A DNA stretch of 57,721 bases from Terriglobia bacterium (GTDB lineage: Bacteria; Acidobacteriota; Terriglobia; Acidiferrales; UBA7541). The position numbers were made by a program, and so were the translations under genes. The stretch lies in NCBI GenBank assembly GCA_020072805.1, contig JAIQGC010000020.1:1-57721 (forward strand), read 5' to 3'. Below the pieces are notes generated by a model that saw only the letters and a list, made by a program, of their open reading frames with translations, was not told the DNA's origin and ran no database searches. Shown in pieces: positions 24,137-30,084 of the stretch (its first letter is position 1; each line of letters starts with the position of its first letter).

Positions 24137-24826
24137 TCACCGCAGCCGCTTCGTATACAGCGCCATCCCCACCGCCGCATCCATCCCCATCTTCTCCAGC
24201 GCCGCAATCTCCCGCCGCGAGCGGATCCCTCCCGCCGCGATGATCGGCAGGGAAGTCTGCTCCCGCAATTCCCGGAACCACTTCAGGTTCGCCCCGCTCA
24301 TCGTTCCCTCGCGGTCCACGTCCGTGCACAGAAATCCCCCGCACAGCGGCGCAAGCTCTTCCATCACCTCCGCCGGCCGCAGCGCCAGCCGTGTGCGCCA
24401 TCCCCGCACCGCAATCCGCCCGCGCAGCGTGTCCAGCGCCACCACGATCCGCCTGCGCCCGATGGCTGTCCTCAGCCGCCTCAGAAATCGTGTATCCACC
24501 GCACCGTCCCGGAACGCCGCGCTGCCCACGATCACCTGCGCCGCCCCCAGCTTCACCAGTTCCTTCGCGCGCGCCACCGTGCGCACCCCTCCGCCCACCC
24601 GCACGCGCATCCCGTAATCCCGCCGCGCCGCGCGGCACAGTTTCTTCACCCACTCCTCGTTCGCTCCTGTCCCGATCGCCGCATCCAGATCAATCACGTT
24701 CAGCCACGGGTGCCGCCGGAACCGCTCCAACAGCCCGAGCACGTCCGCAACCTCCAGCGCGCGCCGCCGCCCGTGCACCAGCTGCACGGCCTTTCCGTCC
24801 TGCAGATCGATGCATGGGATCATCAT
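24137..24826 (-). CDS. hisA: HisA-like phosphoribosylformimino-AICAR ribotide isomerase, divergent
   Basis: A 229-residue beta/alpha barrel for the Amadori-type isomerisation in histidine synthesis. The catalytic Asp segments are kept ([18 protein letters not shown] near the start, [12 protein letters not shown] near 170), as are the phosphate loops VGGGVRT and AGGIRS. The canonical loop after the first strand (QGDY with a following acidic run) is replaced by [14 protein letters not shown], and the protein is shorter than usual. It is the last gene of the his operon, and its start overlaps the hisF stop by 4 bp. Context makes HisA function very likely. Confidence 0.85.
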
Positions 24827-25584
24827 GTCAGGCGCACCGTCACTCCCTCCGAAGCAAGATATTCCTTCAACTCGCGGATCGGCTGAATTCCGTCATGAAA
24901 AATGGAAGCAGCCAGCGCCGCTTCCGCCTCTCCGCCCACGAATACGTCCAGAAAGTCCTGCGGCGTCCGCGCCCCGCCCGAGGCGATCACTGGAACGGGA
25001 ACGGCGTGCGCCACCGCCGCCGTCAAAGCGCAATCAAATCCGGTCTGCGTACCGTCGCGGTCGATCGATGTCAGCAGAATTTCCCCCGCTCCGCGCCCGG
25101 CGCCCTCCCGCGCCCACTCCACCGCATCCCTCGCCACGTCCTCCCGCCCTCCGCTCACCCGCACTGACCATCCTCTTCCCGCGCGGTACGCATCGATCGC
25201 CAGCACCACCGCCTGCGACCCGAATTCCGCCGCCAGTTCCGCGATCAGCTCCGGCCGCCGCACCGCCGCCGTGTTCACTCCCATCTTGTCCGCTCCCGCC
25301 CCGATCACCGCCCGCGCCTCTTCCAGCGTGCGGATGCCCCCGCCCACGGTGAACGGAATCGAAAGCTGCGCCGCCACGCCGCGGATCATTTCCAGTTGCG
25401 TGTCCTTGCCCTCCGGCGTCGCCGAAATATCCAGCAGCACAATCTCATCCGCCCCTTCGCCCTGGTAGCGCAGCGCCAGCTCCACCGGGTCACCCGCGTC
25501 CCGCAGGCCCTTGAACTTGACCCCTTTCACCACCCGCCCCTCGCGGCAATCCAGGCAGGGAATAATCCTCCGCACCAGGCTCAT
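24823..25584 (-). CDS. hisF: imidazole glycerol phosphate synthase cyclase subunit
   Basis: A 253-residue barrel that closes the imidazole ring using ammonia from HisH. Catalytic Asp residues are in [15 protein letters not shown] (about residue 11) and [13 protein letters not shown] (about 130); [15 protein letters not shown] and VIASGGA follow. ATG 25584 overlaps the hisH stop by 4 bp. The length is normal and nothing is missing. Confidence 0.95.
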
Positions 25585-26186
25585 TGCGCCGCCTCCAGAA
25601 AATTCCGCAGCACCCGCTCGCCCGTCGCTCCCGATTTCTCCGGATGAAACTGCACTCCGAAAATGTTCCGCCGCTCCACCGCCGCCGCGAACGCCATGCC
25701 ATGCGTGCACACCCCGGCGATCCCCTCCGCTTCAGCCCCCGGCGCGAACGAGTGCGCAAAGTAAAAACAGTCGCTCTCAGAAATTCCCCGCAGCAGCCGC
25801 GAACTGGCCCGCGGCGTCACCTGGTTCCATCCCATGTGCGGCCTCTTCACCGTCGGCGGCAGTTCCTTCACCCGGCCCGGAAAAATCCCCAGACCGCGCA
25901 TCTCCGGCGCCTCGTCACTTCCCGCGAAGAATATCTGCATTCCCAGGCAGATCCCCAGCACCGGAATTCCCTCAGCAATCCGCCCGCAAAGCGTTTCCCG
26001 CGTTCCCGCCGCCTCCAGCGCCCGCACCAGCGCCCCGATATGCCCCACGCCCGGAACGGCCAGCACCGTGGCCCGCCGCAGCGCCTCGCGCGTCGCAATC
26101 CGCTCCGTCTCCGCTCCCAGCCGCCGCAGCGCGCACTCCAGCGAAAATAGATTTCCCGCCCCGTAATCCAGCAACGAAACCTTCAT
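25581..26186 (-). CDS. hisH: imidazole glycerol phosphate synthase glutaminase subunit
   Basis: This 201-residue class I glutamine amidotransferase feeds ammonia to HisF. The nucleophile Cys80 is in [12 protein letters not shown], and His181/Glu183 are in [10 protein letters not shown]. The N-terminus [16 protein letters not shown] is typical. Start ATG 26186 overlaps the hisB stop as ATGA; its stop overlaps the hisF start. Confidence 0.95.
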
Positions 26187-26776
26187 AGCAGCCCCTTCGT
26201 GCTCGGCAGCAGCCGCTGCAGTTGCCGGTCCCGTGTCACCGCGAAGCGCAGCGCCCGCGCAAACGCCTTGAACATCGCTTCCACCTTGTGGTGCGCCGAG
26301 CGCCCGTAGCGGATCTCCACGTGCACATTGGCCCGCGCCGCCTGCGCAAACCCCTGAAAAAAATCCTCCACCACCGCGCTCTCCAGCTCCCCCACTTGCA
26401 CCGCTCCGATCGTTCCCCGGCATACGCAGTGCGGCCTTCCGCTCAGGTCAATCGCCGCCGCCACCAGCGTTTCGTCCATGGGCATCAGAAAATATCCCGC
26501 TCGCAGAATCCCTTTCTTGTCTCCCAGCGCCTCGCGCACGGCCTCTCCCAGCACGATGCCCAGGTCCTCCACCGTGTGGTGCTGGTCCACGTCCAGGTCC
26601 CCCTGGGCCTGCACCTCAAGGTCGAATCCGCCGTGCCGCGCGAATAGTTCCAGCATGTGGTCCAGAAATCGTATCCCCGTGCGCACGCTGCTCTTTCCGC
26701 GCCCGTCCAGATTCAGTGCCAGCCGGATGTCCGTCTCCGTCGTCTTCCGCTTCACTTGCGCCTTGCGTGCTTTCAT
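26183..26776 (-). CDS. hisB: imidazoleglycerol-phosphate dehydratase
   Basis: A 197-residue single-domain dehydratase without the phosphatase domain of the enterobacterial fusion. Metal-binding His/Glu motifs are present: FLDHMLELFARHGGFD, QHHTVEDLGIVLGEA and SAHHKVEAMFKAFARALR. The histidinol-phosphate phosphatase step must be supplied elsewhere. It starts 4 bp inside the end of hisD and ends 4 bp inside hisH. Confidence 0.95.
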   Translation of the reverse strand: MKARKAQVKRKTTETDIRLALNLDGRGKSSVRTGIRFLDHMLELFARHGGFDLEVQAQGDLDVDQHHTVEDLGIVLGEAVREALGDKKGILRAGYFLMPMDETLVAAAIDLSGRPHCVCRGTIGAVQVGELESAVVEDFFQGFAQAARANVHVEIRYGRSAHHKVEAMFKAFARALRFAVTRDRQLQRLLPSTKGLL

Positions 26777-28038
26777 AGCCTCACCTTTACGGCCTGCTCG
26801 TGCGCCGTCAATCCTTCCGCTCGCGCCAGCGCCATCGCCGCCGGACCCAGCCGCCGCGCGCCCGCCCTCGTAATCTCCTGCACACTTATGCATTTCACGA
26901 AATCCCGCACGCTCAATCCCGCTCGGCTGCGCGCCCATCCCGCCGTCGGCAGCACGTGATTGCTTCCGCTCGCGTAATCCCCAAACGGCTGCGCGCTGTA
27001 GTCGCCCAGAAACACCGTTCCCGCCGAGCGCACCTCCGCAAGCGCTTCCTTCGCCCGGCCCACCAGGCTCAAATGCTCCGGCGCAAACCGGTTGATGAAT
27101 CCCATCGCCGCTCCCCGCGAGGCCGCAATCACGATGGCTCCCGTCTTCGCCAGCGAACGCCCCGCCGGATTGCCCTCGGGCAGACGCGCGCACTGCTCCC
27201 GCAATTCCTCCGCCACCGCCCGGCCCAGCTTCGCCGACGTCGTCACCAGGATGCTCACCGCGTCCGCCGCGTGCTCCGCCTGCGCCAGCAAATCCGCCGC
27301 AATCCATTGCGCATTCCCGTCCTCCGCGTAAACCACCGCCTCCGTCGGCCCCGCCGGCAGATCAATCGCGCAGTCCGCGCTCACAATCTGCTTCGCCGCC
27401 GTCACATAGCGGTTGCCCGGCCCGAAAATCTTCTCCACCGGACGAATCGTCCGCGTGCCATACGCCAGCGCCGCAATCGCCTGCGCCCCGCCCGCCCGGT
27501 ACACCTCGCGCAATCCCAGCAGGGAAGCCGCCGCCAGCACATTCACGCTCGGCCGCGGGCAGCTCACCACGATCTCCGCGACTCCCGCCATCTGCGCCGG
27601 TACCGCGGTCATCAGCAGCGTCGAGACAAGCGCCGCCCCGCCTCCCGGCACGTAGCAGCCAATGCGCTCGATGGGCCGCACTATCTGCCCCACGCGCACG
27701 CCGCTTTCAGGTTCGATGCTCCAGCGCTCCGGCATCTGCTCCCGCGCCACCCGCCGGATGTTCCGCGCCGCCTGCTCGATGGCCCGCAAAATTTCCGGCT
27801 GCGCCTCCCGCTCCGCCGCGCGCATCTCCGCCGCGCTCACCTTCAGGGTCTTCGCGCTCACCCGCACCCGGTCCAGCCGCTCCGTCCATTCCACCAGCGC
27901 CTGGTCGCCCCGCCGCCGCACGTCCCCGACGATGCGCTCCGCCGCGCGCAGCGCCTCCGGATCGCTCCGCCGCCGCCCCTCCAGCAGCGTTCGTTCGCTT
28001 CGCGCATTCAGTTGGAGTGTCCGCATCAGTGTCCCCAT
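26773..28038 (-). CDS. hisD: histidinol dehydrogenase
   Basis: A protein of about 421 residues that carries out the last two NAD-linked oxidations to histidine. Seen: ERIGCYVPGGGAALVSTLL, KIFGPGNRYVTAAKQIV, DLPAGPTEAVV, FAPEHLSL and the late GDYSAQPFGDYASGSNHVLPT, split here by family convention into substrate and zinc regions. Both ATG 28038 (TGATG overlap with hisG) and GTG 28041 (GTGA overlap) are possible starts. All conserved blocks are intact. Confidence 0.95.
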   Translation of the reverse strand: MGTLMRTLQLNARSERTLLEGRRRSDPEALRAAERIVGDVRRRGDQALVEWTERLDRVRVSAKTLKVSAAEMRAAEREAQPEILRAIEQAARNIRRVAREQMPERWSIEPESGVRVGQIVRPIERIGCYVPGGGAALVSTLLMTAVPAQMAGVAEIVVSCPRPSVNVLAAASLLGLREVYRAGGAQAIAALAYGTRTIRPVEKIFGPGNRYVTAAKQIVSADCAIDLPAGPTEAVVYAEDGNAQWIAADLLAQAEHAADAVSILVTTSAKLGRAVAEELREQCARLPEGNPAGRSLAKTGAIVIAASRGAAMGFINRFAPEHLSLVGRAKEALAEVRSAGTVFLGDYSAQPFGDYASGSNHVLPTAGWARSRAGLSVRDFVKCISVQEITRAGARRLGPAAMALARAEGLTAHEQAVKVRL

Positions 28039-28910
28039 CACGGCACGATCTTATTCAGCGGATATTCCACGATCCCCTCCGCTCCCGCCGATTTCAGTTT
28101 CGGAATGACATGCCGCACAAACTCTTCGTCCACGATCGTGTTCACTGCCACCCATTCCGCGTCGCTCAACGTGGACACCGTCGGATTCTTCAGCGCCGGC
28201 AGCACCCCCAGCACTCCCGCCAGGCTCTCCCTCTTCACGTTCAGCATCAGTCCCACCTTGCTCCTCGCCGCGATGGCCCCTTGCAGCAGCAGCACCATGT
28301 TCTCCGCCTTCTCCCGCTTCCACGCGTCCGCAGCCGCTTTGCGGTTCATCACGAACACCGTCGCCGATTCCATCACCGTATCCACAATCCGCAGCCGGTT
28401 GGCCCGCAGCGACGACCCCGTCTCCGTCACCTCCACAATGGCGTCCGCCAGGTGTGGCACTTTCACCTCCGTCGCTCCCCAGGAAAACTCCACCCGCGCC
28501 TTCACCCCGTGGCTCGCCAGGTATTTTTCCGTTATCCGCACCACTTCCGTGGAAACCACTTTCTCTTCCAGGTCGCGCACCTCGCGCATCGGCGAATCCT
28601 CCGGCACCGCCAGCACCCAGCGCACCGGCGTCAGCCTCTGCTTCGAGTAAACCAGCTCGGCAATCTCCGCCACGTCCGCCGACGTCTCCACCACCCAGTC
28701 CCGCCCCGTGATCCCCGCGTCCAGCGCTCCCGTTTCCACGTACCGCGCCATCTCCTGCGCCCGTACCATCAGGCATTCGATCTCCGCATCGTCAATCCCC
28801 GGAAAATAGCTCCGTGAATTCATCGTCACCCGCCACCCCGCCCGCGCCATCAGCTCCAGCGTGGCCTCCTGCAAACTCCCCTTGGGTATCCCCAGCTTCA
28901 TCCGCTTCAC
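28038..28910 (-). CDS. hisG: ATP phosphoribosyltransferase, long form
   Basis: This 290-residue enzyme catalyses the first step of histidine synthesis. The length and C-terminal region ([20 protein letters not shown] and the following ACT-like domain) mark the long, feedback-inhibited form, so no HisZ is needed. The N-terminus reads [19 protein letters not shown] 28910 is preferred over ATG 28901 because GGAGAG lies 5 bases before it and it forms a GTGA overlap with the hisI stop. It is regulated at enzyme level by histidine and, from the upstream sequence, by attenuation. Confidence 0.93.
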
Positions 28911-29293
28911 TGGCTCTCTCCTTTTCCATAAACCTTCTCCGGCGAAAACGCCCGCTCCTGGCTCACCCGCAGGCTCCCGTCCTCCTCCACCCGCCGGTAA
29001 AAACACGTCCGGAACCCTTCGTGGCACACCCCCGGCCCCTGCGCCTCGACGCGCAGCAGCAGCGTGTCCTGGTCGCAGTCCACGCGCATCTCCCGCACCA
29101 CCAGACGGTGCCCGCTCGTCTCCCCCTTGCGCCACAGCTTCTTCCTTGTCCGGCTGTAGAACGTCACTTCGCCGCACTTCCGCGTCGCCGCGTACGCTTC
29201 CTCGTTCATGAACCCCACCATGAGCACCTCTCCCGACGCCGCGTCCTGCACCACCGCCGGCAGCAGTCCCTCCAGCTTTTCAAAATCCAGCAT
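28907..29293 (-). CDS. hisI: phosphoribosyl-AMP cyclohydrolase
   Basis: A 128-residue zinc enzyme opening the purine ring. The Cys ligands are in [11 protein letters not shown] and [16 protein letters not shown], and the substrate block is [18 protein letters not shown]. There is no fused HisE domain. It is the first gene of the operon: ATG 29293 has GGAGGGA 7 bases upstream, directly after the U-run of the attenuator hairpin. The next gene starts inside its stop codon. Confidence 0.95.
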
Positions 29294-29307
29294 GGTAAAT
29301 TCCCTCC

Positions 29308-29346
29308 AAAAACAAAAATCCCGCCTGGCGTTTTTCCGCCGGCGGG
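29308..29346 (-). terminator. his attenuator terminator
   Basis: On the minus strand, CCCGCC-GGCG, a GAAAAA loop and CGCC-A-GGCGGG form a hairpin with one bulged base, followed by ATTTTTGTTTTT. This is an intrinsic terminator placed between the His-rich leader and hisI. Its U-run ends at the hisI ribosome binding site. Confidence 0.85.
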
Positions 29347-29401
29347 CTGATTGAGTGCTCTTGCTATCGTGCTATTTCGCTATGCACACCTCAGCAGCCG
29401 C
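29342..29401 (-). promoter_or_regulatory. possible antiterminator pairing
   Basis: The leader segment at 29395-29401 (GCGGCTG on the minus strand) can pair, with one bulge, with 29342-29349 (CAGCCCGC), which includes the 5' arm of the terminator. A ribosome stalled at the His codons would leave this pairing free. Separately, TTTCGCTATG at 29375-29384 and its exact reverse complement at 29449-29458 bracket the leader frame. Confidence 0.5.
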
Positions 29402-29451
29402 GGATTGTGTCCGTGGTGATGATGGTGCTGCCGCTGTGTCTGCAGTGCCAT
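29380..29451 (-). CDS. hisL: histidine operon leader peptide
   Basis: A 23-codon frame starting ATG GCA CTG CAG and reading MALQTQRQHHHHHGH, then NPRLLRCA and TAG. It has five consecutive His codons and a sixth two codons later, the hallmark of an attenuation leader. Slow translation at these codons when charged His-tRNA is short would stop the terminator at 29308-29346 from forming. There is no Shine-Dalgarno site, but the predicted transcription start is only about 5 bases upstream, so near-leaderless translation is likely. It is far too short for ordinary gene finding. Confidence 0.85.
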   Translation of the reverse strand: MALQTQRQHHHHHGHNPRLLRCA

Positions 29452-29462
29452 AGCGAAACGCC

Positions 29463-29491
29463 AGATTACAGGGAATCTCGCCGCCAGTCAA
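29463..29491 (-). promoter_or_regulatory. putative his promoter
   Basis: On the minus strand TTGACT (29491-29486) is followed after exactly 17 bases by TAATCT (29468-29463). The -35 is good and the -10 is weak. A start about 7 bases downstream would fall near 29456, just before the leader ATG at 29451. Confidence 0.5.
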
Positions 29492-29703
29492 TGCCTTACG
29501 ACGACCGTCTCCATTTCCCCCGTTCCGGTACTCCGGTACTGGACGGCCCAACGATTTTCCTTCCACAGCTACGGTACGGTTCCGCTATGGCGTTTTCCCG
29601 CCTCCCGCGTAGAATATCCCTCGGAAGCTGGAAGGGAATGCCTCTTGTCCTGCGCAACCCAGGAGGCCATCCGGCAAAACGCGAAGAAGGACAGGCCCAC
29701 GAC

Positions 29704-30084
29704 ATGACCACGAACATGACTCCCCCCGTAGCGCGCTCCGTATCCCGCGCCGAACGCCGCGGCACGCGCCGCTGCAAAATCACCCAAATGCTCTTTGCCC
29801 GCCCCTCCGATCCCGACCTCGACCACTTCGAGGATTTGCGCCCCACCCTCAGCGTCTCCCGCAACGGCGTTTATTTCGAAACCGCTCTTCCCGCCTATCA
29901 GCTGGGCATGCGCCTCTTCATCACCTTGCCCTTTTCCAAGGAGCCCACCGCCATCAACCGCGAATATCTCGCCGAAGTCGTCCGCGTCGTAGACCGCCCC
30001 GAAAGCCGCTACGGCATCGGCCTCAAACTCCTGATGGAAATGGGCGGCAGCGCCACTTTCAGCGGCACCTCTATCCAGCGCTAA
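29704..30084 (+). CDS. PilZ-domain-like protein
   Basis: A 126-residue cytosolic protein with an Arg-rich N-terminus (SRAERRGTRRCKI), a beta-rich core (TLSVSRNGVYFETALP, GMRLFITLPF) and VVRVVDRPESRYGIGLKLL. This matches the layout of single-domain PilZ proteins that bind cyclic di-GMP through an RxxxR and a later (D/N)xSxxG-type motif; here SVSRNG fills the second position. The frame is open upstream to 29407, so the start is uncertain; ATG 29704 fits the domain. Divergent from the his operon. Confidence 0.65.
   Translation: MTTNMTPPVARSVSRAERRGTRRCKITQMLFARPSDPDLDHFEDLRPTLSVSRNGVYFETALPAYQLGMRLFITLPFSKEPTAINREYLAEVVRVVDRPESRYGIGLKLLMEMGGSATFSGTSIQR

Follow-up and report, generated by a model that had tools for sequence, protein, structure and literature searches.

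A probable histidine attenuator with a predicted near-leaderless leader peptide gene precedes the his operon in Acidobacteriota

The region upstream of the his operon in the window (the whole 57,721-nucleotide stretch of DNA that was analysed) very probably contains a ribosome-mediated transcription attenuator that would switch the operon on when histidine runs short. This assignment is supported by sequence comparison, which covered the leader peptide gene, its run of His codons, the terminator, the conservation of these elements, the complementarity between leader and terminator region and the spacing of the promoter. In the mechanism that we infer, transcription would begin a few bases 5′ of the leader AUG, and a ribosome, needing no Shine-Dalgarno sequence, would load at the 5′ end of the RNA as it emerges. 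A shortage of charged His-tRNA would stall this ribosome within the His-codon run and leave the last leader codons free to pair, as predicted, with the spacer and the 5′ arm of the terminator; the resulting antiterminator would prevent the terminator from forming and permit readthrough into hisI-G-D-B-H-F-A. When histidine is plentiful, the ribosome would reach the stop codon and mask the last leader codons, the 5′ arm would remain free, and the predicted terminator would end transcription just before hisI.

Read 5′ to 3′ on the minus strand, the region is composed of a promoter, a 23-codon frame, an intrinsic terminator and hisI, and a base-by-base check agreed with the coordinates given here. 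The promoter features a −35 hexamer TTGACT (29486–29491), which in many loci of the same genus is TTGACA at the corresponding position, and, after a 17-nt spacer, a −10 hexamer TAATCT (29463–29468) located 11 nt 5′ of the leader ATG and assigned from the sequence and from the spacing in relatives. Based on the −10 spacing, transcription is predicted to start within 29452–29460, at about 29456, which would leave an untranslated stretch of about 5 nt lacking a Shine-Dalgarno core. The hisL-like leader peptide gene encodes MALQTQRQHHHHHGHNPRLLRCA in 23 codons followed by TAG (29380–29451; ATG at 29451, stop codon at 29382–29380), and its frame recurs in relatives. His occupies codons 9–13 and 15, so that the run of five, the proposed stalling site, spans 29413–29427 and the sixth His codon lies at 29409–29407. 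The last leader codons, TCCGCGGCTGCTGAGGTGTGC (29384–29404), would provide the 5′ strand of the antiterminator, and its predicted 3′ strand consists of GCACTCAATCAGCC together with the terminator 5′ arm (29335–29358). The terminator stem-loop CCCGCCGGCG-GAAAAA-CGCCAGGCGGG (29320–29346) is followed by a T-rich run (29308–29318) that directly adjoins the hisI ribosome-binding site GGAGGG (29302–29307). The preliminary description of this DNA, which had listed a promoter-like pair, a 23-codon frame with five plus one His codons and a terminator whose U-run reaches the hisI ribosome site, was thus correct in each of these elements.

The window promoter matches 8 of 12 consensus bases, with only 3 of 6 in the −10 hexamer, and the threshold of our generic scan was 9. 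This generic promoter and terminator scan of the window reported neither the leader promoter nor the leader terminator; both were recognised by reading the sequence and comparing relatives. The RNA corresponding to 29460–29290 has a folding energy of −63.2 kcal/mol (z −3.8 versus shuffles). We also observed an inverted repeat, TTTCGCTATG / CATAGCGAAA, which pairs the start region of the leader with its stop region (29447–29459 and 29375–29384), and a near-copy of this leader repeat, GTTCCGCTATGGC, at 29579–29591, upstream towards a divergent PilZ-like gene.

All genes of the operon lie on the minus strand in the order hisI-hisG-hisD-hisB-hisH-hisF-hisA. The first structural gene, hisI (28907–29293, ATG at 29293), encodes phosphoribosyl-AMP cyclohydrolase (Pfam PF01502) and is followed by hisG (ATP phosphoribosyltransferase, 28038–28901; PF01634 and PF08029 on 28038–28778, start taken at 28901), hisD (histidinol dehydrogenase, 26773–28041; PF00815) and hisB (imidazoleglycerol-phosphate dehydratase, 26183–26776; PF00475 on 26183–26773, start taken at 26776). 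The glutamine amidotransferase subunit encoded at 25581–26186 (PF00117) was named hisH by its position. Both of the last two genes match PF00977; by start and position we take 24823–25584 to be hisF rather than hisA and 24137–24826 to be hisA rather than hisF. No hisC is present between hisD and hisB, where there is no space for it. A search of the genome for hisE (PRA-PH) returned two short matches of 25.4 and 24.5 bits (cut-off 21.3) within one frame of another contig (G000:C126:26459–27079), which are possibly MazG-like, and no clear hisE, though the genome is given as 99.8% complete. Since the PRA-PH matches sit on another contig, the operon is without hisE. The different gene order noted in the preliminary description was borne out, as were the absence of hisC between hisD and hisB and of hisE from the operon.

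Within the same genus, hisI was detected in 31 of 36 genomes, and all 30 loci that were fetched contain a His-rich upstream frame in which four or more of eight neighbouring codons are His. In a wider genome scan, of which the best 80 of 568 loci were analysed, the leader preceded hisI in 62. These comprise 55 of the 59 Bryobacterales- or Acidobacteria-type loci (L032–L089 and L091) and seven of the remaining 21, among which the Planctomycetota, Lentisphaeria and Methylomirabilis loci lack it. In the former set, eight codons hold only three His in L033 and L054, and no His-rich leader is recognisable upstream of hisI in L051 or L083. Three loci titled Acidobacteria (L100, L107 and L110) showed no leader within the upstream DNA searched, which extended up to 900 nt and, for L107, to 580 nt. 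His operons with this leader also appear under the titles Bordetella parapertussis (L068) and Acidimicrobiia (L093 and L101); because L068 and L101 duplicate stretches placed in this phylum (L113 and L136), those two titles look wrong.

Across a sample of the phylum, hisI was detected in 183 of 297 genomes, from which 60 regions were picked to span families. The leader was found before hisI in 34 of these, namely in every one of the 34 regions with the order hisI-hisG-hisD; L137 and L167, where hisI-hisG is present and hisD is out of view, are without it. Among the regions that begin with hisG or hisD, one (L149, family f21) contains a leader before hisG. In another, L168, a frame with four His lies before hisD. 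The addition of 19 further regions, mostly from families already known to carry leaders, gave a leader in all eight hisI-first loci. In the hisG-first family f21, it precedes hisG in nine of the ten loci with the operon start in view (L149 and eight of the added regions). It was not found in L249, and L250 and L257, in which the operon start is out of view, were left out of this count. The leader thus precedes the first his gene, whichever gene that is, and the f21 arrangement appears to apply one principle to a second operon layout, whether through descent or through convergence. By eye, the hairpin after the leader in several of the f21 loci (L149, L248, L251–L256 and L258) is of a different, GACGC / GCGTC type followed by a T-run. 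Five loci duplicate others, leaving 122 distinct among the 127 with a leader, so the counts from different sources overlap slightly.

An intrinsic terminator was identified between leader and hisI in 123 of the 127 loci with a leader, or 119 of the 122 distinct ones, in a search that included the T-run; the loci where none was found are L063, L109, L141 and L143, of which L109 is the same stretch as L141. Where a terminator was identified, the stem begins 18–49 nt 3′ of the leader stop codon, and between 5 and 120 nt separate its end from hisI. Over the 30 rows of the genus alignment, 98.7% of the cells for the eight terminator pairs are paired, and one of these pairs shows 8 double-sided changes. 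L051 retains a terminator before hisI, and this locus is possibly a decaying attenuator. As judged from these comparisons, the genus and the Bryobacterales-type loci have conserved the layout of leader, His run and terminator, which is also seen again in several other families of the phylum. Loss of the leader frame or the terminator in relatives had been named as what would overturn the attenuator reading, and both proved to be conserved; the accompanying guess that the system is widespread in this group was right. The conservation also bears on a reading in which the hairpin controls translation, its stem blocking the hisI ribosome-binding site until a leader ribosome opens it. The adjacency of T-run and GGAGGG in the window would suit such a device, but the ribosome site lies outside the stem, and a T-run that is kept together with a stem-to-hisI distance as variable as that above fits termination better than site blocking. 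We consider translational control improbable.

The length of the peptide and its non-His residues vary widely among families, and what is kept is the His run, the position ahead of the first his gene and the ability to pair with the terminator. This pattern argues against the His-rich frame being a functional small peptide, for instance one that binds metals, or part of a trans-acting RNA, with a terminator that merely ends a small transcript, as does the presence of the frame before hisI or hisG according to which comes first. Histidine-rich peptides can bind metals, and a leader peptide that acts in trans, peTrpL, is described in PMC7298713, which lend this explanation some plausibility; on balance we regard it as very unlikely.

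A run of five consecutive His codons, CAYCAYCAYCAYCAY, occurs four times in the 3.98-Mb genome, and its two matches in the window compare with a mean of 0.00 in 100 shuffles. The second window match (15677, plus strand) is antisense inside a 1086-codon frame, its own frame being a 359-codon open stretch, and the remaining two fall within open stretches of 286 and 1004 codons in another frame; none of these three sites resembles a short free-standing frame before a gene. That the His run and terminator arose by chance, or that the terminator is a leftover of an upstream gene, could be argued from the commonness of GC-rich hairpins with T-runs (the generic scan gave 1 terminator-like site against 1.9 in shuffles), but it is contradicted by the conservation over many loci and by the rarity of such His runs in this genome. 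Moreover, the upstream neighbour, a PilZ-like gene at 29704–30084 on the plus strand (21.0 bits, just below the Pfam cut-off of 22.5), is divergent, so the terminator is not obviously part of another same-strand gene. We give this explanation almost no weight.

No Rfam family matched the window at threshold, and at E values up to 10 only two matches appeared, both of E about 6. The His_leader family (RF00514) matched neither the region in the window (L002) nor any of 12 relative loci; E. coli hisL scored 131.6 bits in the same search. The T-box family was likewise without a match in the window or in these 12 loci, whose sole Rfam match is one tRNA elsewhere. T-boxes regulate his genes in other phyla, as described in PMC9413887, but given these searches, control of this operon by a T-box or another described riboswitch is scarcely credible.

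The switch proposed for the attenuator depends on the complementarity of the last leader codons to the spacer and terminator 5′ arm. We restricted folding to the RNA up to the terminator loop and assumed a ribosome footprint extending 13 nt past the first base of the A-site codon. Under these settings, across 119 distinct loci, a median of 0.79 of the terminator 5′ arm was paired upstream with the ribosome on a middle His codon, compared with 0.12 once it had reached the stop codon. Shuffled leaders still pair with the GC-rich arm (mean 0.59, median 0.61). The arm pairing exceeds the mean of its own shuffles in 112 of the 119 loci, with energies averaging z −2.1, and only 40 loci are equalled by at most 2 of 40 shuffles. 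The corresponding values for the window are 0.67 on the middle His codon, 0.04 at the stop codon and 0.44 for shuffled leaders (energy z −2.6), and 6 of 40 shuffles reach its arm pairing. When the last 24 leader nucleotides were set against the targets of other groups of loci, the foreign target was better in 31% of comparisons on average (Wilcoxon p 1e-8), versus 52% (p 0.65) for the preceding 24 leader nucleotides used as a control. By group, the own target ranked at 0.315 in A (same genus), 0.329 in B (mostly other Bryobacterales-type) and 0.340 in V (other families of the phylum); it was not preferred in T (same class), with a rank of 0.515.

In the genus alignment, the antiterminator helix, which we defined by hand from a duplex prediction, is paired in 89.6% of cells compared with 32–49% in slid versions. 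Its pairs with double-sided changes (2) are not above shuffles (1.5), and RNAalifold on a genus alignment did not recover it. Given no excess of covariation in the genus, the switch is argued from exclusivity, complementarity and folding order, not from pair-by-pair covariation. Equilibrium folding of the full-length RNA favoured the terminator in most loci whatever the ribosome state (medians 0.93–0.98), with no discrimination between states, and the switch must therefore turn on which structure folds first as the RNA is transcribed. The antiterminator is predicted to be mutually exclusive with the terminator, and to be masked by a ribosome that has reached the stop codon but not by one stalled on the His codons. 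Together with the conservation of leader and terminator, this predicted exclusivity lends support to ribosome-mediated attenuation as suggested in the preliminary description.

In a joint search for −35 and −10 elements, 109 of 121 distinct leaders (24 of 30 in group A, 52 of 56 in B, 17 of 18 in T and 16 of 17 in V) had the end of the −10 box 7–11 nt 5′ of the start codon, compared with 3–9% in single-base shuffles. With a simple search for the −10 box alone, the distances were scattered in groups A, T and V; the narrow range came from the joint search. Transcription usually starts about seven nucleotides past the −10 box, which would leave an untranslated stretch of approximately 0–5 nt. A four-base Shine-Dalgarno core was present before only 2 of 122 leaders, that of the window being among those without it, as opposed to 62 of the 122 hisI genes of the same loci. 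Based on the short distance from −10 to ATG and the missing Shine-Dalgarno core, the leader is probably translated from a leaderless or nearly leaderless transcript.

The proposed attenuator resembles that of the his operon in E. coli and Salmonella (hisL) in its short frame with a His run before the first his gene, in the intrinsic terminator that follows and, as we infer for the acidobacterial leader, in control by ribosome position. Several features set it apart. In E. coli hisL, the sequence TAGGTT, read by eye as the −10 box, ends about 38 nt before the ATG, in contrast to the 7–11 nt of the acidobacterial leaders, which mostly (120 of 122) lack a Shine-Dalgarno core. The predicted acidobacterial antiterminator uses the last codons of the leader itself, unlike that of E. 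coli, and most of the loci begin with hisI, whereas the E. coli operon begins with hisG. The claim that this system follows the same logic as enterobacterial hisL consequently holds for leader, His run and terminator, and does not extend to a start codon about 0–5 nt from the predicted transcript end, to the lack of a Shine-Dalgarno core or to the missing His_leader match. A probable leaderless or near-leaderless start is the distinctive trait of the acidobacterial attenuator.

Outside Proteobacteria, candidate his attenuators that combine a His-leader peptide, a terminator and an antiterminator were described in a 2022 study for the Bacillus cereus group, Peptostreptococcaceae (with Lutispora) and Erysipelotrichales (PMC9413887). 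These Firmicutes candidates belong to another phylum, and we liken them to the acidobacterial leader by their description, not by sequence; no word in the main text of that study begins with “acidobacteri”. The nearest parallel to the predicted start is the trpL attenuator of Sinorhizobium meliloti (rnTrpL), described as leaderless with its leader ATG at the 5′ end of the transcript (PMC7298713), and alike in the near-5′-end ATG, terminator and antiterminator. It differs in sensing Trp, in belonging to Alphaproteobacteria and in having its 5′ end reported, whereas ours is deduced from promoter spacing. Among the literature matches listed, which mostly excluded subscription journals, there was no prior report of an acidobacterial his attenuator. 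The mechanism of attenuation is already known; the phylum, the sequence and the near-leaderless design appear undescribed in the literature searched.

When the RNA between the predicted start and the terminator loop was folded without a ribosome, more than half of the arm was paired upstream in 45 of 56 group B, 16 of 18 group T, 23 of 30 group A and 6 of 15 group V loci. In the window this pairing was only 0.15 because the leader start region pairs with the stop region through the inverted repeat described above, and the window is accordingly predicted to be off by default. These differences among groups predict that the default in the absence of translation may differ between lineages. The E. 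coli his attenuator is off by default without a ribosome. We tentatively raise the possibility, which on present comparisons we hold to be somewhat doubtful, that this is an old and widespread attenuator of Acidobacteriota acting from a leaderless transcript, in many lineages on by default without a ribosome, opposite to E. coli. If so, the operon would be on unless a ribosome completes the leader, and translation from a bare 5′ end would serve as a timing device.

Comparable leaders for other amino acids were sought in 25 near genomes per search, and no Trp-, Leu- or Val/Leu/Ile-rich leader clearly recurred before trpE (21 loci), leuA (23) or ilvB (18), a rough negative since the upstream flank was set as the first 1500 bases of each locus, so that genes close to contig ends may be misplaced. 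Single frames passed the filter at three leuA loci (L195, L203 and L204), at one ilvB locus (L221) and at several trpE loci. The trpE frames included a recurring Trp-containing one, MFLAQGIAQWEIWT..., which takes the form MF(L/V)(A/P)QG(I/V/F)AQWE(I/L/M)W with two Trp and lies about 70–250 nt before the trpE match in L172, L173, L175–L177, L180, L185 and L192. Instead of a leader, this frame may be the tail of an upstream gene.

Gene callers may overlook so short a leader, and Rfam did not find it, so that building a covariance model on these loci would close a gap in annotation. Across several families of the phylum, the layout brings together a probable sensor, its mechanism and its target pathway. 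It would also allow attenuation to be tested on a leaderless or near-leaderless transcript, and thereby bears on how quickly a first ribosome can follow RNA polymerase when no Shine-Dalgarno sequence is there to recruit it.
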